From positions 6,628,719-6,692,718 of the forward strand of contig NZ_CM002285.1 of NCBI RefSeq assembly GCF_000497445.1: a stretch of 64,000 nucleotides of DNA, in the 5' to 3' direction. Of this stretch, positions 5,051 to 64,000 are shown in pieces (the stretch's first letter is position 1; every line of letters starts with the position of its first letter). The translations under genes and the position numbers were made by a program. The notes below the pieces were generated by a model, which ran no database searches, was not told where the DNA came from, and saw nothing but the letters and a program-made list of their open reading frames with translations. Source of the DNA: Streptomyces roseochromogenus subsp. oscitans DS 12.976 (GTDB taxonomy: Bacteria; Actinomycetota; Actinomycetes; Streptomycetales; Streptomycetaceae).

Positions 5051-6006
5051 CAGGCCGCCCTCAGACGTGGGTTGACCAGCAGATACAGGATGTCGATGAG
5101 GAGGTTGACGACGACGAACCCGGTGGCCGTGGTGAGCACCACCCCCTGGACGACGGCCGGATCGCCGTTCTGTACGGCGTCGATCATCAGCTTGCCCATG
5201 CCGGGCAGCGAGAAGATGGTCTCGATGACGACGGCACCGCCGAGGAGATAACCGACCCGCAGTCCCAGCACGGTCAGCGGATTGACCAGGGCGTTCCTGA
5301 GGACGTTCCGCCCGACGACCACCAGGGGCGGCAGCCCGCTCCCGATCGCGGTGCGCACGTAGTCCTTGTCCAGCTCCTCCACCACCGAGGTCCGTACGAT
5401 CCGGGTGAGCTGGGCGGCCACCGGCAGGGAGAGGGCGAAGGCAGGCAGCGCCATGGTCTTCAGCCAGCCGGTGACGGAGTCGGCCGGGTTGATATAGCCG
5501 CCGGTCGGGAACCAGCCCCGGTCCACCGCCAGGTACTGGATCATCAGCAGCGCCAGCCAGAACCCGGGCGCGGCCACCCCGATCAGCGAGACGACCCGGA
5601 TGGCCTGGTCCGGGATCCGGTCCCGGTACACGGCCGCCGTGACCCCGCCGGACAGCGCCAGCACCACCGCGACACCGAGGCCGAGGAAGGTCAGCTGGAG
5701 GGTGAGCGGCAGCGCGGTGGTGACCTGGTCGACGACCGGGGCGCGGGTCAGTGCGCTGGTGCCGAGGTTGCCGTGGAGGAGGCCGCCGACGAAGTGGACG
5801 TACCGTACGGGCAGCGGATCCAGCAGCCCGCCCCGCTCCCGGAAGTCGTGCAGCTGCTGCGGGGTCGGGTTCGAGCCCTGGAAGAACGCGGACGCCGGGT
5901 CGACGTCCGAGAAGCGCATCACCAGGAACACGAACAGCACGATCCCGAGCATGAGCGGCACGAGCAGGGCGACACGGCGGAGCAGGATCCGTACGACGGC
6001 CGTCAT
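5050..6006 (-). CDS. ABC transporter permease, dipeptide class (DppB-like)
   Basis: A 318-residue integral membrane protein with the DppB layout: helix near residues 8-30, a long external loop (about 31-95), then five helices. The EAA-type cytoplasmic loop reads RNVLRNALVNPLTVLGLRVG. It pairs with the permease half of the downstream fusion to form the membrane channel. The start lies 4 nt from the stop of the substrate-binding gene, so the operon order is binding protein, DppB, DppC-DppD fusion, DppF, aldolase. Confidence 0.9.
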   Translation of the reverse strand: MTAVVRILLRRVALLVPLMLGIVLFVFLVMRFSDVDPASAFFQGSNPTPQQLHDFRERGGLLDPLPVRYVHFVGGLLHGNLGTSALTRAPVVDQVTTALPLTLQLTFLGLGVAVVLALSGGVTAAVYRDRIPDQAIRVVSLIGVAAPGFWLALLMIQYLAVDRGWFPTGGYINPADSVTGWLKTMALPAFALSLPVAAQLTRIVRTSVVEELDKDYVRTAIGSGLPPLVVVGRNVLRNALVNPLTVLGLRVGYLLGGAVVIETIFSLPGMGKLMIDAVQNGDPAVVQGVVLTTATGFVVVNLLIDILYLLVNPRLRAA

Positions 6007-6010
6007 GCCG

Positions 6011-7639
6011 TCAGACCCACTTGGCCTGGAGCACGTTGATCCCCGGGTACGGCTGTGCTCTTATCCCGGTGAGTTTGCGCGGGTCCCAGGCGGTCATCAG
6101 CTCGTTGTGCACCACCGGGTACAGCACGGCCTGCTCGGCGACGATGTCGATGTAGTCCTGGATCATCGCCTTCTTCTTCGCCGCGTCCGGCTCCCGGGTC
6201 GCCCGGTCCATGTCCTTGAAGAGCTGCTTGGCGACGGAGTCGTCGGCCCACCGGGTGTACCCCATCCACAGGTTCTGGGGGCCGTAGTTGTAGTGCATGA
6301 TCAGGTCGGCGTCGAGCCCGAACTGATTGGGATTGGAGGCGGCGGCGACCACCTGGTAGTCCCGCTTCTGGTCCATCTTGGTGAAGACGGCCGTGGTCTC
6401 CTGCGGTGCCAGGGTCGTCTCCACGCCGACCGCGTCCCAGGACGACTTGATGGTCGGCAGACAGTCCACGATCCAACTGACGTTCACGGCAAGGATGTTG
6501 ACCTTGAGGTTCGTCACGCCCGCCGCCTTCAGCAGCGCCTTCGCCTTCTGCGGGTCGTAGTCGTACACGGTCCTGGCCCGCCGGTAGCCGGGATTGCCCT
6601 CGTTGAGGAACGAGGAGGCGGGCTTCCCGTGCCCTCTCAGGGCGACCTGCACCATCTTCTCGGTGTCGATGGCGTAGTGCAGCGCCTGCCGCACCCGTAC
6701 GTCGTCGAACGGCTTGTGCCGGGTGTTGAACATCAGGAACAGGTTGTTCATCCCGGCGCCGCCCGCGACCGTCAGGCCACCCTGCTCCAGTCTCGCGATA
6801 TTGGCGTACGGGATGTTGTCCGCGATCTGTGCCCCGGCGCCGGACCCGGAGATCTTCGCGACGCGCGGAGCGGCGTCCACGATGGTCAGCCAGTTCATGC
6901 GCTTGAAGGCGGGCTTGCGGGGGCCGTTGTAGGCGGCGAACGCCTCGAAGGCGGTGTTGGACTTCGGGTGGTGCGCGGTCTGCCGGTACGGTCCCGAGCC
7001 CACGGCGAGTCCCTTGACGGCGTCGTCCCAGGCGCCGGGCCTGGAGAAGACGTGCTCCGGCATGATCTTGGCGAGGGTGAGCCGGGAAAGCCCGTCCGGG
7101 AAGGGGAACTTGAGTACCAGCTCGACGGTCCTCGTATCGACCTTCTTCACGCTGTCCAGCCAGCTCACGAAGAAGCCCTTGGCGAGCGTCTGGGTGCCCG
7201 GGTCGAGGATCCGGTCGAAGACGAACACGACGTCGTCGGCGGTGACCTGCTTGCCGTCGTGGAAGGTCGCGCCGGAGCGCAGTGTGAACCGCCAGGTGGT
7301 GGCGTTGGGGTCCTTGGGGACCTCGGTGCCGAGCGCCGGATACGGCACCCGGGTGATCGGGTCGGTGTCCAGCAGCCCCTCGTAGACATGGTTGTTGGCG
7401 GCCATCGAGAACGCCGACGCCGTCTGCGTCGGATCCCAGGTGCCGTCGTTGCCGTAGCCGATCACGGCGGTCAGCGTCCGGTCCTTGCCACCGCCTCCGG
7501 TGTCGTTCGTGGACTCGGGCCCGGCCGAGCAGCCGGCCAGCACGGGCGGCAGCGCGGCGGCCGCGCCCAGCGCACCGGTGAACTTCAGGAACGACCGGCG
7601 GCGCGGGGCCGGTGCGTCGGGGGTCACGTCGTCGCGCAC
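6011..7639 (-). CDS. ABC transporter substrate-binding lipoprotein, SBP family 5 (DppA/OppA-like)
   Basis: A 542-residue extracellular solute-binding protein. The N-terminus has a twin-arginine-like RRRSFLKF motif, a hydrophobic stretch and a lipobox LAGC near residue 36, so it should be exported and lipid-anchored. The body has the family 5 pattern (RFTLRSGATFHDGKQVTADD). GTG start with GGAGGA a few bases upstream. It is the first gene of the importer operon. Family 5 proteins bind peptides, nickel or sugars; SatA, which binds sialic acid in Haemophilus, belongs to this class, and the adjacent sialidase makes that ligand plausible here. Confidence 0.88.
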   Translation of the reverse strand: MRDDVTPDAPAPRRRSFLKFTGALGAAAALPPVLAGCSAGPESTNDTGGGGKDRTLTAVIGYGNDGTWDPTQTASAFSMAANNHVYEGLLDTDPITRVPYPALGTEVPKDPNATTWRFTLRSGATFHDGKQVTADDVVFVFDRILDPGTQTLAKGFFVSWLDSVKKVDTRTVELVLKFPFPDGLSRLTLAKIMPEHVFSRPGAWDDAVKGLAVGSGPYRQTAHHPKSNTAFEAFAAYNGPRKPAFKRMNWLTIVDAAPRVAKISGSGAGAQIADNIPYANIARLEQGGLTVAGGAGMNNLFLMFNTRHKPFDDVRVRQALHYAIDTEKMVQVALRGHGKPASSFLNEGNPGYRRARTVYDYDPQKAKALLKAAGVTNLKVNILAVNVSWIVDCLPTIKSSWDAVGVETTLAPQETTAVFTKMDQKRDYQVVAAASNPNQFGLDADLIMHYNYGPQNLWMGYTRWADDSVAKQLFKDMDRATREPDAAKKKAMIQDYIDIVAEQAVLYPVVHNELMTAWDPRKLTGIRAQPYPGINVLQAKWV

Positions 7640-7864
7640 GGGTCCTCCAGCAAGTCGGTGAGGGGAGGGGGTGGGAGATACGACGTCCTACGTCCTACGT
7701 CCGGTCGGTAGCGCGACCATAAGAGGGGCTGTGGGGGCGGTCAAGACAGCGCACACGAATGGCCTAGCCGTCAGAGGTCGTGCCAATGGCGGCCTGAAAT
7801 ACTCGGGTACGGGCGCGAGTTGGGCCGATCGGGTCCACAGGGATCGCGCAGGGGACGCGGCGGG
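7640..7864. promoter_or_regulatory. Promoter region of the importer operon with a triple heptamer ACGTCC(T/G)
   Basis: No gene is visible. Three head-to-tail heptamers, ACGTCCT, ACGTCCT and ACGTCCG, occupy 7683-7703, about 45-65 nt upstream of the GTG of the binding-protein gene. Short direct repeats in this position can be regulator sites, but I cannot name the protein. The rest of the gap shows no convincing stem-loop. Confidence 0.35.
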
Positions 7865-9316
7865 TCAGGTCCGGTCGTCCCGTTCCTCCACGACCAGGTT
7901 GCCGTCCGGGGTCAGCCGGGCCAGGACGCCGGTGCGGTGGAAGCCGTCGGGGGTGAAGGCCCGGGCGTTGTGTTCGGGGGACCGGTAGTAGCCGCGAGGG
8001 GTGTACGGGCCGCGGACGAGGAGTTCGCCGGCCTCTCCCTCGGGGGCGTCGATACGGATCTCGTCGGCCGGGGAGACCGGGCGTCCTTGGGTCGTGAGCA
8101 CGACGTCCCGCGGGTCGTCGAGGCGGGTCATGGTGAGCAGCCCCTCGGCCCTGCCGGACACCTGCTGCAGTCGGCAGCCGAAGCCGGGCTCGATCCGTGC
8201 GGCGAGGCCGGGGGCGAGTCGGCCGCCGCCGATCTGCAGCACGCGCAGCGAGGCCAGCGCCCCGGCAGGCGACGTCTGCCCGTCAAGGAGTGGAGCGGCG
8301 TCCGGTGCGGCGAGCGGGCGTGCCGGGCGTCGCGACGGGGTGAACGTTGCCTGCCGGGGCACCAGGCCGGCCCCGGCGCCGTCGAGGGCGTCCAGCCACC
8401 GGGCGGCGAGGCCGGGCAGCACCGCGGTGACGGTCACCCGTTCCCGCGCGATCGCGGCGAAGGCGGTGTCCGGTGCCGGGTCGTCGAGCAGCACCACGGT
8501 GCCGCCCGCGGCCAGGGTGCCGAGGATGCCGGGACTGCCGAGGGTGAGGTTGAACTCCGCGGGCAGCGCCGCCAGATAGACGTCCTCGGGGCCGAGGCCG
8601 AGCAACTCGGCGGTGGCGCGCAGCTGGTAGGCGTAGTCGTCGTGGGTACGGCCGATGAGCCCCGGCGGCGCCGTCGTACCGCCGGGCAGCACCGTCGTAC
8701 CGCCCGACAGCAGGAAGAACGCCACGTCGGAGGCGTCCAGACGGCGGTCCGGTACGGGTGCCTCGTCCACAGTGTGCAGCGGGAAGGCCAGACAGCCGCC
8801 CGGCAGCACCGAGAAGCCGCCCGCCTGCTCGCCGGGCACGGCGACGGTGAAGATCCGCCGCAGTGATGTCGACCCGGTGGCGACCCGGGCGGCCATCGCG
8901 GTGTGGTCGAAGCCGCCGTGCACCGCCGGGCCGATGTAGCCGACGGCCTCGGTCTCGGCGACCACATGGGTGATCTCCCGCTCCCGATGGGTGATCGGCG
9001 CGAGCACGGGGACCGCCCCGGCGCGCATCAGCGCGAACACCGCGACGATGAACTCCGGGGTGTTCGGCAGCTGCACCACGACGCGCTTGCCGGGTGCGAC
9101 GCCGCGCAGCCGCAGCCCCGCGGCCATCCGGTTCACCCGCCGGTCCAGCTGGAAGTACGTCAGACGGGTCGCGCCGTGCGCGAGCGCGGTGCGCGGGCCG
9201 TACGCGGCCGCCCAGTCGTGCAGCAGCTCGGGCAGGGTACGGCCCTGCCAGTAGCCGGCGCGGCGATAGGCGAGGGCGGTCTCCTCGGGCCAGGGGGTGA
9301 AGCCGTTCGCTGCCAT
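7865..9316 (-). CDS. Degenerate 2,3-dihydroxybenzoate-AMP ligase-like protein (EntE/DhbE family), lacking the C-terminal lid
   Basis: A 483-residue member of the adenylate-forming family. The N-terminus (FTPWPEE...YRRAGYWQG) and middle (TQGRPVSPADE, RGPYTPRGYYRSPEHN) align by eye with aryl acid ligases of siderophore pathways. Three features suggest lost activity. The P-loop SGGTTGTPK is replaced by an expanded SGGTTVLPGGTTAPPG without the lysine, because 21 nt are duplicated (copies of GGCGGTACGACG at 8672-8683 and 8693-8704). The TGDL motif reads TGVL, so the ribose-binding Asp is gone. The protein ends about where the roughly 100-residue lid domain with the catalytic Lys should start. Start chosen at 9316 because upstream codons have low G/C third positions and EntE-type proteins begin here. 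No siderophore genes are adjacent. Confidence 0.75.
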   Translation of the reverse strand: MAANGFTPWPEETALAYRRAGYWQGRTLPELLHDWAAAYGPRTALAHGATRLTYFQLDRRVNRMAAGLRLRGVAPGKRVVVQLPNTPEFIVAVFALMRAGAVPVLAPITHREREITHVVAETEAVGYIGPAVHGGFDHTAMAARVATGSTSLRRIFTVAVPGEQAGGFSVLPGGCLAFPLHTVDEAPVPDRRLDASDVAFFLLSGGTTVLPGGTTAPPGLIGRTHDDYAYQLRATAELLGLGPEDVYLAALPAEFNLTLGSPGILGTLAAGGTVVLLDDPAPDTAFAAIARERVTVTAVLPGLAARWLDALDGAGAGLVPRQATFTPSRRPARPLAAPDAAPLLDGQTSPAGALASLRVLQIGGGRLAPGLAARIEPGFGCRLQQVSGRAEGLLTMTRLDDPRDVVLTTQGRPVSPADEIRIDAPEGEAGELLVRGPYTPRGYYRSPEHNARAFTPDGFHRTGVLARLTPDGNLVVEERDDRT

Positions 9317-9321
9317 CCCTG

Positions 9322-9334
9322 CAACATATTGTTG
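9322..9334. promoter_or_regulatory. Short inverted repeat CAACA-TAT-TGTTG just upstream of the ligase-like gene
   Basis: Perfect 5-bp arms around TAT, 6 to 18 nt upstream of the ATG at 9316, overlapping the weak ribosome binding site region. It sits in an A/T-richer patch and could be an operator or promoter part. Short enough to be chance. Confidence 0.25.
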
Positions 9335-9516
9335 ACCCGGTGATTCCGTAAAGCGGTTTGGCTTTTCCATGATTCGGAATTCGGGCGGGGTGGCGGATTG
9401 TAGAGGCGGAGCGTCACTCTGGATGTGCGAAGCGTGAAACTCGGGAAGGAAGGGGAGCAGGTCAAGGCGCGACGCACAATCCGCGCGGCGCGCTGTGTGC
9501 CGAACAGCCGGAGGAC

Positions 9517-9744
9517 ATGTTGAGGGAATTGCGGCCTGCCGTCGGCAGCCATGTGGTGGACACGCGTACCGGCAGGCTCGGCATCGTCATGGGGTACGAG
9601 GGGCCCTACGTCCAGCTGAGACCGTACGGCGGAGGTCGGGAGTGGGACGCCGAACCCGGAGCACTGCGCACCGCGACCGCCGCCGAGCGGCTCAAGGCGG
9701 CGACCGCGCACGCCAACGCCCGCAGCCGCGGAGAAGCGCTCTGA
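9517..9744 (+). CDS. Small conserved actinobacterial protein with YVQLRPYGGGREWDAEP motif
   Basis: A 75-residue protein of unknown function with no membrane segment or signal. It has DTRTGRLGIVMG and YVQLRPYGGGREWDAEP and ends in ANARSRGE. The first 75 residues of the protein encoded at 39306-39803 share this pattern, so two family members lie in the window. The fold looks like a small beta-rich domain (SH3/KOW-like spacing is my guess). GGAGGA at 9510-9515 is too close for the ATG at 9517; the TTG at 9520 may be the true start. G/C-rich third positions support coding. It lies 31 nt upstream of the recO leader. Confidence 0.65.
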   Translation: MLRELRPAVGSHVVDTRTGRLGIVMGYEGPYVQLRPYGGGREWDAEPGALRTATAAERLKAATAHANARSRGEAL

Positions 9745-9775
9745 CCGTTCCCCCGCATGGGTGAGAATGGGTGCC

Positions 9776-9907
9776 ATGAGTCTGTTCCGCGACGACGGCA
9801 TCGTGCTGCGCACCCAGAAGCTGGGTGAGGCGGACCGGATCATGTTGTGCTTGCCCGGGGGGCACCCCCCGGAGCCCCGGCCGGGTGAAGGCGGGGGTCG
9901 GCGATGA
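9776..9907 (+). pseudogene. Duplicated recO head: 43-codon upstream reading frame coupled to recO
   Basis: Bases 9776-9842 (67 nt) repeat bases 9904-9970 with two synonymous differences, so the first 22 codons of recO occur twice. In the first copy the frame then runs through a 61-nt GC-rich linker (hairpin CCGGGGGG-CA-CCCCCCGG at 9855-9872) and stops at TGA 9905-9907. That stop overlaps the ATG of full recO (9904-9906) as ATGA. The natural recO ribosome-binding context lies before the first copy, so translation of recO probably depends on coupling to this 43-residue leader. It is either a duplication scar or a working leader peptide. Confidence 0.8.
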
Positions 9908-10653
9908 GTCTGTTCCGGGATGACGGCATCGTGCTGCGCACCCAGAAGCTGGGTGAGGCGGACCGGATCATCACGTTGCTCACGCGCGGTCACGGCCGGG
10001 TACGGGCCGTGGCGCGCGGGGTGCGGCGCACCAAGTCGAAGTTCGGGGCCCGGCTGGAGCCCTTCTCCCATGTTGACGTGCAGTTCTTCGCGCGCGGGAG
10101 CGAGCTGATCGGGCGCGGGCTCCCGCTGTGCACACAGAGTGAGACCATCGCGCCGTACGGCGGCGGGATCGTGACCGATTACGCGCGCTACACCGCCGGT
10201 ACGGCGATGCTGGAGACCGCCGAGCGGTTCACGGACAACGAGGGCGAGCCCGCCGTGCAGCAGTATCTGCTGCTGGTCGGAGCCCTGCGGACGCTGGCGC
10301 GGGGAGAGCACGCCCCTCACCTCGTCCTCGACGCCTTCCTGCTGCGCTCCCTCGCCGTCAATGGCTACGCGCCCAGCTTCGACGCCTGCGCGAAGTGCGG
10401 CATGCCCGGCCCGAACCGCTTCTTCTCGGTCGCCTCCGGCGGCTCCGTCTGCGCCGACTGCCGGGTGCCCGGCAGCGTCGTACCCTCGCCACAGACCCTG
10501 GTACTGCTCGGCGCGCTGCTTACGGGAGACTGGGAGACGGCGGACACGTGCGAGGCGCGGTACGTCCGCGAGGGCAGCGGGCTGGTGTCCGCCTACCTGC
10601 ACTGGCATCTGGAGCGGGGGCTGCGCTCGCTCAGGTATGTGGAAAAGACGTAG
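9904..10653 (+). CDS. recO: DNA repair protein RecO
   Basis: A 249-residue RecO, usual length for actinobacteria. The N-terminal OB-fold region (FRDDGIVLRTQKLGEADRI) is followed by the helical C-terminal part with a zinc-type cysteine set (CAKCGMPG...CADCRVPG, residues about 159-185). RecO anneals SSB-coated DNA and loads RecA with RecR in the RecFOR pathway. It is followed 17 nt later by uppS, a common actinobacterial arrangement. Start: the ATG at 9904 lacks its own good ribosome binding site and overlaps the stop of the duplicated head (9776-9907). Confidence 0.95.
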   Translation: MSLFRDDGIVLRTQKLGEADRIITLLTRGHGRVRAVARGVRRTKSKFGARLEPFSHVDVQFFARGSELIGRGLPLCTQSETIAPYGGGIVTDYARYTAGTAMLETAERFTDNEGEPAVQQYLLLVGALRTLARGEHAPHLVLDAFLLRSLAVNGYAPSFDACAKCGMPGPNRFFSVASGGSVCADCRVPGSVVPSPQTLVLLGALLTGDWETADTCEARYVREGSGLVSAYLHWHLERGLRSLRYVEKT

Positions 10654-59435: not shown

Positions 59436-60179
59436 CTAGGTCGACACGAGATCCCTGATGAGCTGCGTCATCTGTGCGGACGGGGCGACCCCCAGTTCCC
59501 TGCGGAGCAGCGCCCGGTAGTCCTCGTAGCGCTTGACCGCGCAGGCGAGGTTGCCTTCGGCGGCGTGCACGTCGATCACGATGCGGTGGCCGGTTTCGCG
59601 GATCGGGTCGATCTCGATGGCTGCCAGCGCGGTCTGGAGCGCGGGTAAGTAGTGCCCCGCTGAGCGGAATTGCTGGGCCAGACTTTCGAGGGCGTGCTGG
59701 CGCAGCTGGTTCCAGCGGTCGCGCTCCGTCGTCAGCCATTCATCAGGCCAGCCGGGCAGCAGCTCCCTGGACAGTTCCTCGATCAACGGCTCGAAGTCAT
59801 CGGGGAGTTCGCTCAGACCCGAGATGATCTGCCGAGCCGCCGCCCACGCGGCGCGCAGGTCCACCAGGACCGCCTCGGACAGCCGCAACCGTTGCCCGAT
59901 GCACTCGACCGCCGGTACGAAGGACGCTCGCCGTGCCTGGCACAGGGCGGAGCGGAGATTCGCAGCCGCTCGGCACGGGGTCGAGTCCGGCCACAGCACC
60001 CCGGCGGCCGCAGCTCGGTACACCCCCTCGCGGTTCAGTGCAAGTAGGGCCAGCAGGCGCTGTGTTCCGAGCGGAATCGGGCGCGGTCCTTCGCCGCAGG
60101 CGAACTCGAAAGCTTGAAGTAGTTGCAGGTTTGGACCAGTCCCAGAAGACACATTCACCACTGTTCCCAGAAGACACAT
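59436..60179 (-). CDS. SARP/BTAD-type transcriptional regulator
   Basis: A 247-residue protein. The N-terminal half resembles an OmpR-like winged helix of AfsR/SARP regulators (LALLALNREGVYRAAAAGVLWPDS, then RSALCQARR). The C-terminal half is a bacterial transcription-activation domain (ESLAQQFRSAGHYLPALQTA, ELGVAPSAQMTQLIRDL). Such proteins activate secondary-metabolite operons by binding heptamer repeats. ATG 60179 lies inside a 25-nt tandem duplication that shifts the frame of the original start. Divergent from the PatG-like protease gene and its small partners. Confidence 0.8.
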   Translation of the reverse strand: MCLLGTVVNVSSGTGPNLQLLQAFEFACGEGPRPIPLGTQRLLALLALNREGVYRAAAAGVLWPDSTPCRAAANLRSALCQARRASFVPAVECIGQRLRLSEAVLVDLRAAWAAARQIISGLSELPDDFEPLIEELSRELLPGWPDEWLTTERDRWNQLRQHALESLAQQFRSAGHYLPALQTALAAIEIDPIRETGHRIVIDVHAAEGNLACAVKRYEDYRALLRRELGVAPSAQMTQLIRDLVST

Positions 60180-60187
60180 TCACCACT
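60140..60187. repeat. 25-nt tandem duplication over the SARP start
   Basis: The 23-mer TCCCAGAAGACACATTCACC-ACT occurs at 60140-60162 and again at 60165-60187, period 25. As 25 is not a multiple of 3, the upstream start codons (GTG 60219 or ATG 60213) are out of frame with the SARP body. With one copy removed the frame would be continuous from them. The ATG used now comes from the duplication itself. Confidence 0.85.
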
Positions 60188-60446: not shown

Positions 60447-63050
60447 ATGGAAGCGCGTTCGATCCTCGGGGACCCCGCCGTCGTCGGCGGCCTCCTGGGT
60501 GATCCGCGTGTGTGCGTGGCGGTGCTCGACGGTCCGGTGGACCTCGGCCACCCCTGCTTCGCCGGTGCCGACGTCCGTGTCCTGCCCACCCTGGTGCGGG
60601 ACCCGGCAGGCTCGGGTCCGATGGCGTTGCACGGAACCCACGTCACGAGCCTGCTGTTCGGGCAGCCCTCCGGCCCGGTGACGGGCGTCGTACCCCGGTG
60701 CCGCGGTCTGCTGCTGCCGGTGTTCCCCGACGACACCCGGACCCGGGTACGCCAACTGGACCTCGCTCGCGCGATCGAGCAGGCGGTCCAGGCCGGGGCG
60801 CACATCATCAACATCAGCGGAGGCGAACGCACCCCCGACGGCCTGCCCGACCCGATGCTGGAACGGGCGCTGAAGCTGTGCGACGACCACCGCGTCCTCG
60901 TCGTCGCCGCCGTGGGCAACGACGGCTGCGACTGCCTCCAGGCCCCCGCCGCCACCGCATCGGTCCTCGCAGTGGGCGGGTTGGGCGCCGACGGCGCACC
61001 CCTGGAGATCAACAACTGGGGGCCGGCCTATCGCGTCAATGGGGTGCTGGCGCCGGGCGAGGGCATCCGGGGCGCCGCCCCGGGCGGCGGCGTCCGCGCC
61101 CTGACCGGGAGCAGCTTCGCCACGCCCCTCGTGTCCGGCCTCGCCGCGCTGCTGGTCGCGGACCAACTGCGACAGGGGCTGCCACCGGACCCCAGGGCGG
61201 CCGGCCAGGCGATCCTCGCCACGGCCACCGCCACCGCGTGCCGGCCCGACGACGCCCCGCACTGCCGACGTTTCCTCGCCGGAACGGTGTCCGCCCCACG
61301 GGCCTTCCGGCTCATCGCGGCCGCACAGCCGCAACCCGCCACGGCACGGCCCGCCGCCGCTGCCGTGGCACCGCAGCCATATGAGGGGGGCGCGTTCGAT
61401 GGATCCGATGGAGAAGGAGCGAGCGAGATGGACAGTGACCGCCAGTACTGGGACGCAGCACACGGTGCCGCGAGCATGAGCCGTGCCGTACCGGGAGAAG
61501 GGCTGCACGCGGCAGCGGGCACGCCTTGGCCGGCCGACGGAGGGATACGGGCGGCAGCGAGCACGCTTCCCCCGCCCGACGGAGGGATGCAGGCGGCAGG
61601 GAACACCCTTCCGCCGCCCGACGGCGGCACGACCCCGCCCTCTCCCGCCGCCCCGCCCCAGCCCTCTCCCGCCGCCCCGCCCCCGCCCGCCATTCCGCCC
61701 CGGCCCGTCGGGGACCCCGGCGTTCTCGCCTCGTGCGCCTGCGGATGCGGAGGGGGGCCGGGCTGTTCGGAAGCAGACGGCGGCGTGGGACCCGCCGCCG
61801 CACAGCCCCCAGCACACACACCGCGGACCCCGGCCCCCGGCGTCGTACCGGCGGACACCGCACCAGCCGGTGCGGTCCCGCCCGCTCATCTTCGGTCCGA
61901 GCCCGAAGCCCGGCTCCAGCCCTCGGGCCTTCCGGGCGGGCCCGAGGGCGGAGCCCTCCAGCCGCCGTCCCCCGAACTGCCCGGGCCCGCGAGCCCCCAC
62001 CCCGCACCCGGCGTGCGCCCAGCGTGCGCCTGCGCGACCGGTACATCCGGCACAGCGCTGGTCTACGCGATCGGCACCGTCGGATTCGACTACACGACCG
62101 AAGCCCGTCGGGACAGCTTCCGTCAGGCGATGCCCTTCGTCGACGACGGGCAGGACGACCAGGGACGCCCGCGCACCAAGCAGCCGGACGTCTACGACCC
62201 CGCCCAGCTGCGCGACTACCTGATCACGGCCCCCTGGGCGGCGAACAACCTCGCCTGGACCCTGATGGTCGACGGCGCACCGGTCTACGCGCTGGAGGCC
62301 GAACCGGCCATCGGCATGGAGTACGGCGAGACCTTCGACGAGGAGCGGGTACGCGGCGCGGCCTCGGACCCCTCCGGCCTGGCGGACCTGCTGGTCGAAC
62401 TCGCGCGCCCGCCCGTCTCCACGGTCTACCGGACGTTCCGGGACGCCATCGTCGGCGAGGCGCTGAAGCCGGAGGACAAGAACTTCGTCTCCCTCGTGTC
62501 CATCCCCGGTGTGCTGACCGACCGCACCACACGCCTGTTCAGCGGACAGGTCGTGCCTGTGGTCGAGGTGAAGAGCCGCGGACTCTACACCTGGAATGAG
62601 GCGGCCCTGGTCGAGGACGTCATCGCCACCGTGATGGCCGACAACGCGCGGCGCAACGTCGACCTGAGCGAGGACACGCTCCGCAAGACCGTACGCGCCC
62701 TGCTGGACAAGCTCTACTACCAGTTCCGCAACCTCGGGCAGACCGACGCGGACCGGGCCCTGAACTACGCCGGCACCAACGCGTTCCTGCTCACCAGCTC
62801 CTTCGCCGACGGGTTGCTGGGTGCGAAGTACGTCCCCGGCGACGAGGACCGCTTCTACTCCCTGGACACCATCACGGTCAGCAAGAGCACGTACTGCCGG
62901 GAGAGTTCGGTCTGCTACGACGTCGTGACGACCTTCTTCGACCCGGAGAACGAGCTGCGTTCACGGCTGTCCTTCCTGCAGACGATCGACGTCAGCATCG
63001 AGACCCCGGTCAGCGTGGCACCGGTCCACCAGTTCCTGGGCGCCATGTGA
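60447..63050 (+). CDS. Subtilisin-like serine protease with PatG-like C-terminal domain
   Basis: An 867-residue protein. Residues 1-280 form an S8 domain with all catalytic groups: Asp28 (VAVLDGPVD), His65 (LHGTHVTSL), Asn158 (AVGND) and Ser223 (TGSSFATPL). A Pro/Ala/Gly-rich linker (about 295-535) has three 14-residue repeats ending in DGG (353-394) and Cys-rich CACGCGGGPGC. Residues about 537-867 start VYAIGTVGFDYTTEARRDSF and include RTTRLFSGQVVPVVEV, closely recalling the C-terminal domain of cyanobactin macrocyclase PatG. No signal peptide, so it is cytoplasmic. ATG 60447 has GAAGGG 7 nt upstream. It heads an operon of small genes; likely role is cleavage or cyclisation of a ribosomal peptide. 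Function inferred. Confidence 0.82.
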   Translation: MEARSILGDPAVVGGLLGDPRVCVAVLDGPVDLGHPCFAGADVRVLPTLVRDPAGSGPMALHGTHVTSLLFGQPSGPVTGVVPRCRGLLLPVFPDDTRTRVRQLDLARAIEQAVQAGAHIINISGGERTPDGLPDPMLERALKLCDDHRVLVVAAVGNDGCDCLQAPAATASVLAVGGLGADGAPLEINNWGPAYRVNGVLAPGEGIRGAAPGGGVRALTGSSFATPLVSGLAALLVADQLRQGLPPDPRAAGQAILATATATACRPDDAPHCRRFLAGTVSAPRAFRLIAAAQPQPATARPAAAAVAPQPYEGGAFDGSDGEGASEMDSDRQYWDAAHGAASMSRAVPGEGLHAAAGTPWPADGGIRAAASTLPPPDGGMQAAGNTLPPPDGGTTPPSPAAPPQPSPAAPPPPAIPPRPVGDPGVLASCACGCGGGPGCSEADGGVGPAAAQPPAHTPRTPAPGVVPADTAPAGAVPPAHLRSEPEARLQPSGLPGGPEGGALQPPSPELPGPASPHPAPGVRPACACATGTSGTALVYAIGTVGFDYTTEARRDSFRQAMPFVDDGQDDQGRPRTKQPDVYDPAQLRDYLITAPWAANNLAWTLMVDGAPVYALEAEPAIGMEYGETFDEERVRGAASDPSGLADLLVELARPPVSTVYRTFRDAIVGEALKPEDKNFVSLVSIPGVLTDRTTRLFSGQVVPVVEVKSRGLYTWNEAALVEDVIATVMADNARRNVDLSEDTLRKTVRALLDKLYYQFRNLGQTDADRALNYAGTNAFLLTSSFADGLLGAKYVPGDEDRFYSLDTITVSKSTYCRESSVCYDVVTTFFDPENELRSRLSFLQTIDVSIETPVSVAPVHQFLGAM

Positions 63051-63080
63051 GGCCCTACCCGCCCCTAGGAGGCGACGACA

Positions 63081-63281
63081 GTGTCCAGTACGCACCGACC
63101 ACCGCGGATCAGACCGCCCATCCCCGCACCGCCCGTGTTCAGGGACGGGCCCATGGAACTCCCGGGGCACGCCGGCCCCGGAGCGGACGGCGGGGCCCGG
63201 GCAGCGGGTGACCGCTGCGGGCACCTGTCCGGCACAGCGCGGCAGATGTGTTACTCCGCGCGCTACGGCATCCGGGTCTGA
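63081..63281 (+). CDS. 66-residue peptide, candidate precursor or partner of the PatG-like protease
   Basis: GTG 63081 has a perfect AGGAGG (63067-63072) 8 nt upstream and begins 30 nt after the protease stop. The N-terminal half is Pro/Arg-rich (RPPRIRPPIPAPPVF), the middle Gly/Ala-rich, and the C-terminus compact with Cys46, Cys57 and two Tyr (CGHLSGTARQMCYSARYGI). No known family recognised. Leader-core layout is suggestive but not proof of a RiPP precursor. Confidence 0.65.
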   Translation: MSSTHRPPRIRPPIPAPPVFRDGPMELPGHAGPGADGGARAAGDRCGHLSGTARQMCYSARYGIRV

Positions 63282-63320
63282 ACGATCCGGGTAGGAAAGA
63301 AGACAGAGAGGAGCAAGGCC

Positions 63321-63524
63321 ATGAGGGACCGCATCTCGCGAGAGGCGGACGGGCTCAGGGCCGCCGCGCTGCGCATGCCGCAGCAGGCGCCCCCGGTCGA
63401 CCGGACCGCCGCCGGGGCTGCCGCCTACGCCCACGACAGGGGCGACGGCGTCCAGCCGAACGGACTCCTGAGCTGGCTCGGCCAGCAGGCGGACAACGTC
63501 GTCGGCAACGTCCTGCCGTTCTGA
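63321..63524 (+). CDS. 67-residue peptide with amphipathic C-terminus, candidate precursor
   Basis: ATG 63321 with GAGAGGAG 7 nt upstream. The N-terminal half is charged and helical (READGLRAAALRM); the C-terminal end, NGLLSWLGQQADNVVGNVLP plus a final Phe, is an uncharged-to-weakly-acidic amphipathic stretch. That pattern fits a leader followed by a core peptide, or a small helix that binds a partner. No family recognised. Confidence 0.65.
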   Translation: MRDRISREADGLRAAALRMPQQAPPVDRTAAGAAAYAHDRGDGVQPNGLLSWLGQQADNVVGNVLPF

Positions 63525-63607
63525 CACCGCCACCGCGCAGGCGGGCGCGGCTGCCCATCACGTCCGCCTGCGCGCCCCCTTATCCGTAACGGACGAAAGG
63601 CCGTGCC

Positions 63608-63937
63608 ATGCGCCTCAACCTCCCACCCCAGGCGGCGATCGACCGGAAGCGGGACCGCTACCACCCTTATCTGCTCAGCTACGTCCTCACGGACGACTCG
63701 TCCGGCGACTCCTCCGACAATTCGCCTGGCGGCTCGTCCGGCAACTCGTCCCGGGCTCCGGGGGCGGTGCGCACCGTCACCCCACGGGACAGCCTGCTGC
63801 CGCCCGGCGGCCCGGCTCGCGACAGTAACGCGTTCGTGCTCGAGGTCCAGCCCGGCGGTCTCTTCGGCCACGACCCCGGCGACCCCGCCCCCCTGTGCCG
63901 CTCCACCCGCGGCGGCTGTCCCCCGTCCCGCCGCTGA
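63608..63937 (+). CDS. 109-residue protein with a Ser/Gly/Asp-rich repeat
   Basis: ATG 63608 follows GAAAGG. Residues about 30-48 are a low-complexity run of DSSGDSSDNSPGGSSGNSS type; before it RDRYHPYLLSYVL, after it SNAFVLEVQPGGLFG, and a Cys-containing tail (CRSTRGGC). No signal peptide. Fourth gene of the protease unit, spaced 83 nt from the previous one. Function unknown. Confidence 0.6.
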   Translation: MRLNLPPQAAIDRKRDRYHPYLLSYVLTDDSSGDSSDNSPGGSSGNSSRAPGAVRTVTPRDSLLPPGGPARDSNAFVLEVQPGGLFGHDPGDPAPLCRSTRGGCPPSRR

Positions 63938-63964
63938 CCCGGCCGCCGCCCGAGAGGGGACACC

Positions 63965-64000
63965 ATGCCCGCCCTGCGCACGGCCATCGCCTGGCCCAAC
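63965..64000 (+). CDS. Start of a further gene in the protease unit, cut by window edge
   Basis: ATG 63965 follows GAGAGGGGAC and lies 27 nt after the previous stop. Only MPALRTAIAWPN is visible. The spacing says it belongs to the same operon. Confidence 0.55.
   Translation, partial: MPALRTAIAWPN

Follow-up and report, generated by a model that had tools for sequence, protein, structure and literature searches.

The window analysed here is a stretch of 64,000 nucleotides from Streptomyces roseochromogenus subsp. oscitans DS 12.976 (contig NZ_CM002285.1; its source genome is called the own genome below). Towards its right-hand end lies a gene for a protease related to the PatA and PatG proteases of cyanobactin pathways, followed on the same strand by three small genes, whose products we refer to as types A, B and C. 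A preliminary description of the locus had proposed a possible system of the ribosomally synthesised and post-translationally modified peptide (RiPP) kind. The features on which the argument rests are as follows.

60447..63050, + strand: solo PatA-type protease of 867 residues, made up of an S8 domain, a linker, PatG_D and PatG_C (Pfam, NCBIfam, tree).
60510..61226, + strand: S8 catalytic domain, PatA-type (PF00082, residues 22-260).
61332..62048, + strand: linker of low complexity (residues 296-534, about 240 in all) in which several G-V-x-A/P sites occur (sequence).
62061..62303, + strand: PatG_D domain, residues 539-619 (PF18047, 30.6 bits, cut-off 27).
62670..63035, + strand: PatG_C domain, residues 742-863 (PF18065, 102 bits, cut-off 25.9).
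63081..63281, + strand: type A protein of 66 residues, with a leader-like PxPAPPVxR, a degenerate site GARA and a core C-GHLSGTARQM-C (pattern, alignment).
63321..63524, + strand: type B, a putative precursor of 67 residues, with leader MPQQAPPVDR at 63375-63404, site GVQPN at 63447-63461 and a predicted released tail at 63462-63521.
63608..63937, + strand: type C protein of 109 residues, weakly PatB-like (LPxQ..I.R ... GHDPGDPxP; profile comparison).

The small genes stand directly downstream of the protease, as first described. Good ribosome binding sites, which had been ascribed to all three, are present ahead of the first two (AGGAGG and GAGGAG), while the third is weak, with GAAAGG before the start.

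The intact subtilisin domain and PatG-like C-terminus of the initial proposal are borne out by PF00082, PF18047, PF18065 and TIGR03895, the curated PatA/PatG model, which the whole protease passes with 528.5 bits (cut-off 421). The C-terminal region scores significantly against the PatG domains in hidden Markov model searches and reaches 159 bits against the PatG-DUF structure 4uvq. By these matches the protein is a full member of the PatA/PatG cyanobactin maturation protease family, and it is the sole PatG_C protein in the whole own genome. The likeness to PatG does not extend to the macrocyclase, since the catalytic domain is PatA-type: it matches the PatA structures 3zxx and 4h6v with 315 bits across the full length, against 151 bits for the PatG macrocyclase 4h6x, where the N-terminal part is poorly aligned. 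In an alignment of 21 sequences His62 and Ser223 are invariant and Asp28 is found in at least 90%, residues that we take to be catalytic from the subtilisin pattern.

A tree of 109 S8 domains, three of them from solved structures, agrees with this placement. Computed with IQ-TREE, it separates a PatG-type side (28 rows) from a PatA-type side (81 rows) with support of 100/100, and unites the 23 actinobacterial rows in one clade (100/98) nested in a clade of 39 rows (95/84), the root being a midpoint only, the bootstrap values rough and the long branches unsure by the program's own warning. The PatG-type side consists of 4h6x and rows solely from loci with more than one S8 gene. The 39-row clade also holds Pseudomonadota, Planctomycetota, Bacillota, Gemmatimonadota, Acidobacteriota and three cyanobacteria. 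Forty loci are listed for this solo-PatA clade (one, L024, is without an S8 row of its own), and no second S8 gene was seen in the flanks examined, which reach at most 10 kb and are much shorter for some loci. A reading of the protease as a macrocyclase was rejected on the domain scores and the tree.

Loci for comparison came from a scan of species genomes that gave 205 protease relatives, of which the best 80 by likeness to the query were kept, corresponding to 79 distinct loci. The actinobacterial system comprises 24 loci including the window's own; 22 have the protease end on the contig, and L012 and L023, in which the contig end truncates the protease, are excluded from all counts over 22. 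Gene families were taken from an all-against-all comparison of called genes at 27 loci.

The second small gene belongs to a multi-copy family of 47 proteins, found downstream of the protease in 20 of the 22 loci; an initial list of 49 was reduced by an out-of-frame open reading frame (ORF; L004:12174-12575) and by L009:12506-12682, which is actually type A. In L017 the type B copies lie upstream of the protease on the opposite strand, and no copy was found in L013. The family has a common anatomy: a constant leader [LM]PxQAxPVxR, a glycine-led PatA-like site and a variable hydrophobic tail. Of the 278 small ORFs located up to 3.5 kb downstream of the protease, 52 carry the leader motif, versus four of 1667 elsewhere in the 22 loci (Fisher p 3e-41); the 52 include an out-of-frame ORF from L004, and three of the four are the genuine upstream copies of L017. 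Following the site from copy to copy, G[VI][EQD][AP][SNDA] is present in 35 of 47 proteins, the remainder having GVAAS, GAEAN, GIEGS or GGAAAS. A profile built from a hand-picked 32 of the 47 matches 14 canonical cyanobactin precursors (from L041, L044, L047, L057, L058 and L059) in hhalign with 96% probability (E 5e-9), and the match spans both leader and site.

Past the site the proteins diverge. Their tails are 10-39 residues long, computed with a site pattern that caught an earlier glycine stretch in three proteins (two in L004, one in L009) and made those tails overlong, and they are hydrophobic, with a grand average of hydropathy of 0.76 versus -0.69 for the preceding part. Among the 17 loci with at least two copies, 16 have leaders that are more alike than their tails, a comparison that used a tighter site pattern than the tail lengths did (mean identities 0.59 versus 0.35; Wilcoxon p 4.6e-5). 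The sole exception is L018; the clearest case is L102, where four copies share a near-identical leader and carry three different tails. The source names shown for 74 type B relatives are all "hypothetical" or "uncharacterized", and no Pfam domain is found in any of them.

The first small gene is also tied to the protease. The type A core C-x(3-6)-[GD]-x-[AR]-[RQ]-x-M-C occurs within 900 bp past the protease in 21 of 22 loci and nowhere else on either strand of the 22 loci (390 kb; 757 kb of strand sequence), a count obtained with a pattern broadened after variants had been seen, the first form having fitted 17 of the 22. Variants in the 22nd locus, L006, and in L113 were found by eye (AQKLC, ARQLC). 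An alignment of 20 sequences (without L006 and L018) gives a profile that matches the canonical cyanobactin precursors at 76% (E 2e-5). Type A may be a second substrate or an accessory protein, and its two cysteines may pair. Comparing the neighbourhoods of homologues thus answers in the affirmative whether the two small genes accompany the protease. Three loci held out from these comparisons, drawn later from genome samples (L110, L112 and L113, the last a fuller stretch of L102; L109 and L111 duplicate L011 and L019 and so are not counted), have both type A and type B genes in all three cases, the type A gene of L113 by eye. High-GC sequence yields many spurious ORFs, and the small genes could in principle be chance products or gene-calling artefacts beside an ordinary protease; their conservation across genera, the leader enrichment, the confinement of the type A core and the agreement of the held-out loci refute this, and we give it practically no credence.

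Type C is found in 17 of 22 loci (by pattern and by eye), and 16 of the 17 (without L021) were aligned. Its profile resembles PatB at both ends in a weak and short match (69.6%, E 4e-5, 53 columns), and the value is not specific to type C because type B reaches 68.7% against PatB from 14 leader columns alone; against type A, type C gives 25%. The small protein next to PatA in cyanobacteria is PatB in the one case scanned (TIGR04220, 122.6 bits). Aligned PatB relatives, for example L036:13727-13948, start with LPxxSxPVKR or a sequence near it, which is the precursor motif, and PatB matches the precursors at 77% over 12 columns. On this resemblance the 109-residue protein may be the counterpart of PatB, whose function is given as not known in the excerpted text of PMC4663559.

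In another explanation the small leader-bearing proteins assist or restrain the protease, as inhibitors, chaperones or docking regulators, and its actual target is something else. Type A suits this idea, being conserved in its C-terminal part too and having no good cleavage site in the window's copy; PatB carries the same leader motif; and few type B proteins have the exact PatA consensus. Set against it, type B is multi-copy with a leader better conserved than the tail in nearly every locus that allows the comparison, and its match to established substrates of this protease family includes the known cleavage site. We regard a purely partnering role as unlikely.

If type B is instead a substrate, its tail might still be closed head-to-tail or otherwise tailored after cleavage by enzymes encoded elsewhere, giving a macrocycle or a modified product. 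PatG-type enzymes are macrocyclases according to the excerpted text of PMC10885120, and the own genome encodes four YcaO proteins, with at least one YcaO in seven of nine other actinobacterial genomes that have the system. Several findings speak against this. The preliminary description had seen no YcaO gene and there is indeed none in the window, the nearest lying about 116 kb from the protease; tblastn finds YcaO in the flanks examined of none of the 40 solo-clade loci versus 13 of 40 other loci. Two of the nine genomes (G006 and G007, with loci L015 and L016), whose completeness is not given, show no YcaO, and the own genome has no further PatG_C protein. A YcaO partner was rejected as a linked gene on the flanks and on the distance in the own genome. 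Nor do the peptides carry the marks of such enzymes: by our patterns an RSI-like element is present in none of the 47 type B proteins versus six of 14 canonical precursors, and an RSIII-like element or C-terminal recognition sequence (AYDG or FAGDDAE type) in none versus 11 of 14, as would be expected without PatD and PatG, and no tail among the 47 contains a cysteine. Tailoring from elsewhere in the genome appears improbable to us, somewhat more so than the partnering role.

The linker of the protease holds sequences like those at which it would cut its substrates. The window's own linker includes GVRPA at residues 522-526, and at least one G-[VI]-x-[AP] is found in 106 of 111 linkers (from a set of 120 proteins, nine of which were not delimited), 215 sites in total versus 58 +- 7.5 in shuffled linkers, the shuffle preserving composition only. 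The site is often GVRPS ahead of a CxCGG stretch, and several cyanobacterial PatA proteins have VEASGCGCGG. These could possibly be copies of the protease's own expected cutting site, serving for self-cleavage or as a built-in pseudosubstrate. An AlphaFold model of the protease (21 sequences) has a mean predicted local distance difference test score (pLDDT) of 64, with the linker below 50, and is too weak for placing the linker sites.

The neighbouring features are these.

59436..60179, - strand: SARP-like regulator (BTAD) of 247 residues, divergent, its start codon uncertain (PF03704, 56.7 bits).
60140..60187, no strand: two perfect 23-nucleotide direct repeats at the SARP start, spaced by 25 nucleotides (repeat search).
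63965..64000, + strand: start of a 425-residue hemopexin-repeat protein that ends past the window (L003:7684-8961; Pfam).

The divergent gene is SARP-like, as had been proposed. A SARP relative accompanies the protease at 17 of the 27 loci; where strands were inspected, all loci but L004 have it on the opposite one. The 23-nucleotide repeats are a possible operator; they are not common to five other loci inspected, among which L016 has its own 19-nucleotide tandem repeat at this position. The gene cut by the window edge had been counted among the small peptide genes and is no such thing, for once the stretch was extended rightward it proved to encode the hemopexin-repeat protein. A fold search ranks hemopexin domains first for this protein, and its family occurs in seven of 27 loci (in L006 as the C-terminal half only), behind the protease (24) and the SARP relative (17) as the widest families apart from the small genes. 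Its C-terminal half has the M15-type pattern H-x6-D...H-x-H, invariant in six sequences, and might be an M15-type peptidase, although Pfam, structure-profile and fold searches show the hemopexin part and the C-terminal part is poorly modelled. The next larger gene varies among loci, being Rv2525c-like (glycoside-hydrolase-like) or trypsin-like in L005:7133-7906, L009:14013-16031 and L010:15458-17218.

The system is thinly spread. In a draw from the genus it is intact in two of 100 other genomes; in a family draw of 101 genomes including the own, the protease is present in six (five of 100 others), and three of five regions examined were new loci. One 7.08-Mb chromosome contig has the protease close to either end (G183:C1:10527 and C1:7072693), and five Streptomyces plasmid records carry it too (hits H1-H5). 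PatG_C alone is no marker of the system: it is matched in 15 of 101 genomes of the genus, and six such regions viewed widely comprised four with distant, separate S8 and PatG_C genes without leader peptides, one degenerate copy and one two-protease locus, the remaining regions having been viewed only as about 3 kb. Broken protease pieces without leader peptides lie on a 583-kb contig (L117:5611-6575, - strand). The Streptomyces locus L118 has a PatA-like and a PatG_C-bearing second protease (5844-10138, - strand) and a precursor ending in FAGDDAE (L118:12998-13144, - strand), and is a cyanobactin-type cluster outside cyanobacteria. Further two-protease PatA and PatG loci (L072, L077, L073, L078 and L081) belong to Gandjariella, Actinomadura, Caulobacter, an Eremiobacterota and a Nanopelagicales metagenome-assembled genome; the precursors of the Caulobacter locus, L073, have repeated GVEAS...PFAG cassettes, and YcaO was not found in its genome. 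Viral contigs gave distant S8 matches only.

Taken together, the conserved gene set, the anatomy of leader, site and variable tail, the kinship with cyanobactin precursors, the PatA type of the protease and the absence of YcaO and PatG partners from the flanks examined, all of them read from sequence, support a RiPP-like system much as first suggested. They point, in our judgement probably, to a minimal cyanobactin-like maturation operon, free of YcaO and macrocyclase, that releases linear amphipathic peptides. We infer that the divergent SARP probably controls the operon and that the lone PatA-type protease would recognise the precursors through the N-terminal [LM]PxQAxPVxR and cut at the G-V-[E/Q]-[A/P]-[N/S/D]-like site. 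From the 67-residue protein this would free a linear, hydrophobic and amphipathic tail of about 20 residues, for which neither heterocycles nor ring closure of the PatG type would be expected. Because the tails are variable and amphipathic, we suggest that the products may be membrane-active, in the manner of bacteriocins or surfactants.

Several observations weigh against this proposal. PatA cleaves after G(L/V)E(A/P)S according to the excerpted text of PMC10885120; this published consensus is found exactly in four of the 47 type B proteins and the looser G[LVI]E[AP][SND] in 25, and the window's own GVQPN is off it. Type A, with its degenerate GARA and conserved tail, is unlike a product core in the window. 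Just 20 of 47 tails have a helical moment above shuffles (z >1.65), and the mean tail charge of -0.6 is unlike that of typical cationic antimicrobials. No transporter or immunity gene is among the widely shared families at the 27 loci compared. Neither NCBIfam nor Pfam has a model that matches the window's small proteins, and the profile links span short stretches. The NCBIfam precursor models TIGR03678, TIGR04446 and NF042906 likewise gave no match for these three or for three further actinobacterial small proteins; in a control scan two of three canonical precursors passed an NCBIfam precursor cut-off and one fell below. The isolated PatG C-terminal domain showed no precursor binding by nuclear magnetic resonance in the excerpt of PMC4259220. 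Finally, counts over loci are non-independent, since selection favoured resemblance to the query and several loci are closely related; L023 and L024 are separate contigs from the same strain and probably represent a single locus in two halves.

A variant of the proposed maturation operon, and not exclusive of it, is that the peptides are released as described and serve development, as an aerial-growth surfactant or a signal, and not antagonism. The hydrophobic and on average slightly anionic tails would suit such a role, as would the varying next larger gene (hemopexin-repeat, Rv2525c-like or trypsin-like), while the patchy occurrence and the copies on plasmids and near both ends of one chromosome fit an accessory trait better. 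We consider it a minority prospect, if a better one than either partnering or tailoring.

Beyond actinobacteria, an ORF with the strict leader lies within 4 kb downstream of the protease in 12 of 16 solo-clade loci; the other four (L066, L068, L071 and L074) have none in that interval, which also counts against the proposal. Cys-rich leader peptides are found at the alphaproteobacterial solo-PatA loci L076, L079, L080 and L067, with tails alike in the first three (PSDCCGxGxCCVGAC...), and this group has a second peptide kind with a Cys-helix core somewhat resembling type A. We put forward tentatively, at somewhat less than even chances, that solo-PatA loci form a separate ribosomal peptide class that crosses phyla, in which one PatA-type protease reads an LPxQxxPVxR leader and frees linear peptides without macrocyclase or heterocyclase, the tails being amphipathic in actinobacteria and rich in cysteine in alphaproteobacteria and in some planctomycetes. 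On this view cyanobactins would represent an elaborated branch of the class, the protease might split itself at the linker sites ahead of PatG_D, and PatB would be a derived member of that lineage which bears the leader.

These results propose substrates for a protease family that the database entries of many streptomycetes already name "cyanobactin maturation protease", and a simple source of possibly membrane-active peptides. The cyanobactin leader motif is kept here without a linked heterocyclase or macrocyclase, and the leader may therefore be recognised by the protease or by some other shared component; this bears on the roles of the conserved PatA/PatG C-terminal domain and of PatB, which are stated to be open questions in the excerpts of PMC4259220 and PMC4663559 respectively. 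An excerpt of the latter, from 2015, states that cyanobactin clusters were known from cyanobacteria only. Genome mining has given "cyanobactin" calls in Saccharopolyspora NFXS83 (PMC10145562) and Streptomyces (PMC12672707), whose excerpts note cyanobactin-like genes and describe no precursor, leader, cleavage site or solo-PatA clade, and a cyanobactin peptidase is reported in an excerpt on Roseomonas (PMC8776678). Within the open-licence PubMed Central literature, as far as its excerpts extend, no description of these precursors was found.

The locus shares with cyanobactin pathways (patellamide pat, anacyclamide/piricyclamide type) a PatA/PatG-family protease with PatG_C, precursors with an LPxQxxPVxR leader and a site of the G-V/L-E-A/P kind, tandem precursor genes and perhaps a PatB-like small protein. 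It differs from them in that no PatG-type macrocyclase, linked YcaO or RSI- or RSIII-like element was found, and in its longer, hydrophobic, Cys-free tails, its SARP regulator and its phylum. Leaderless or double-glycine class II bacteriocins are likewise small, unmodified hydrophobic peptides with tandem genes, whereas here there are a cyanobactin-type leader and peptidase and no widely shared transporter family. Aeruginosamide and viridisamide are linear cyanobactins, and their clusters still carry tailoring enzymes. A linear product is expected here too, but no tailoring enzyme was found among the families shared by the 27 loci. Muscoride A is also named as a linear cyanobactin in the excerpt of PMC10885120. 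Because it lacks, as far as found, the macrocyclase and the C-terminal recognition sequence, the locus should not be classed among the cyanobactin pathways, even if it may operate like their first half.

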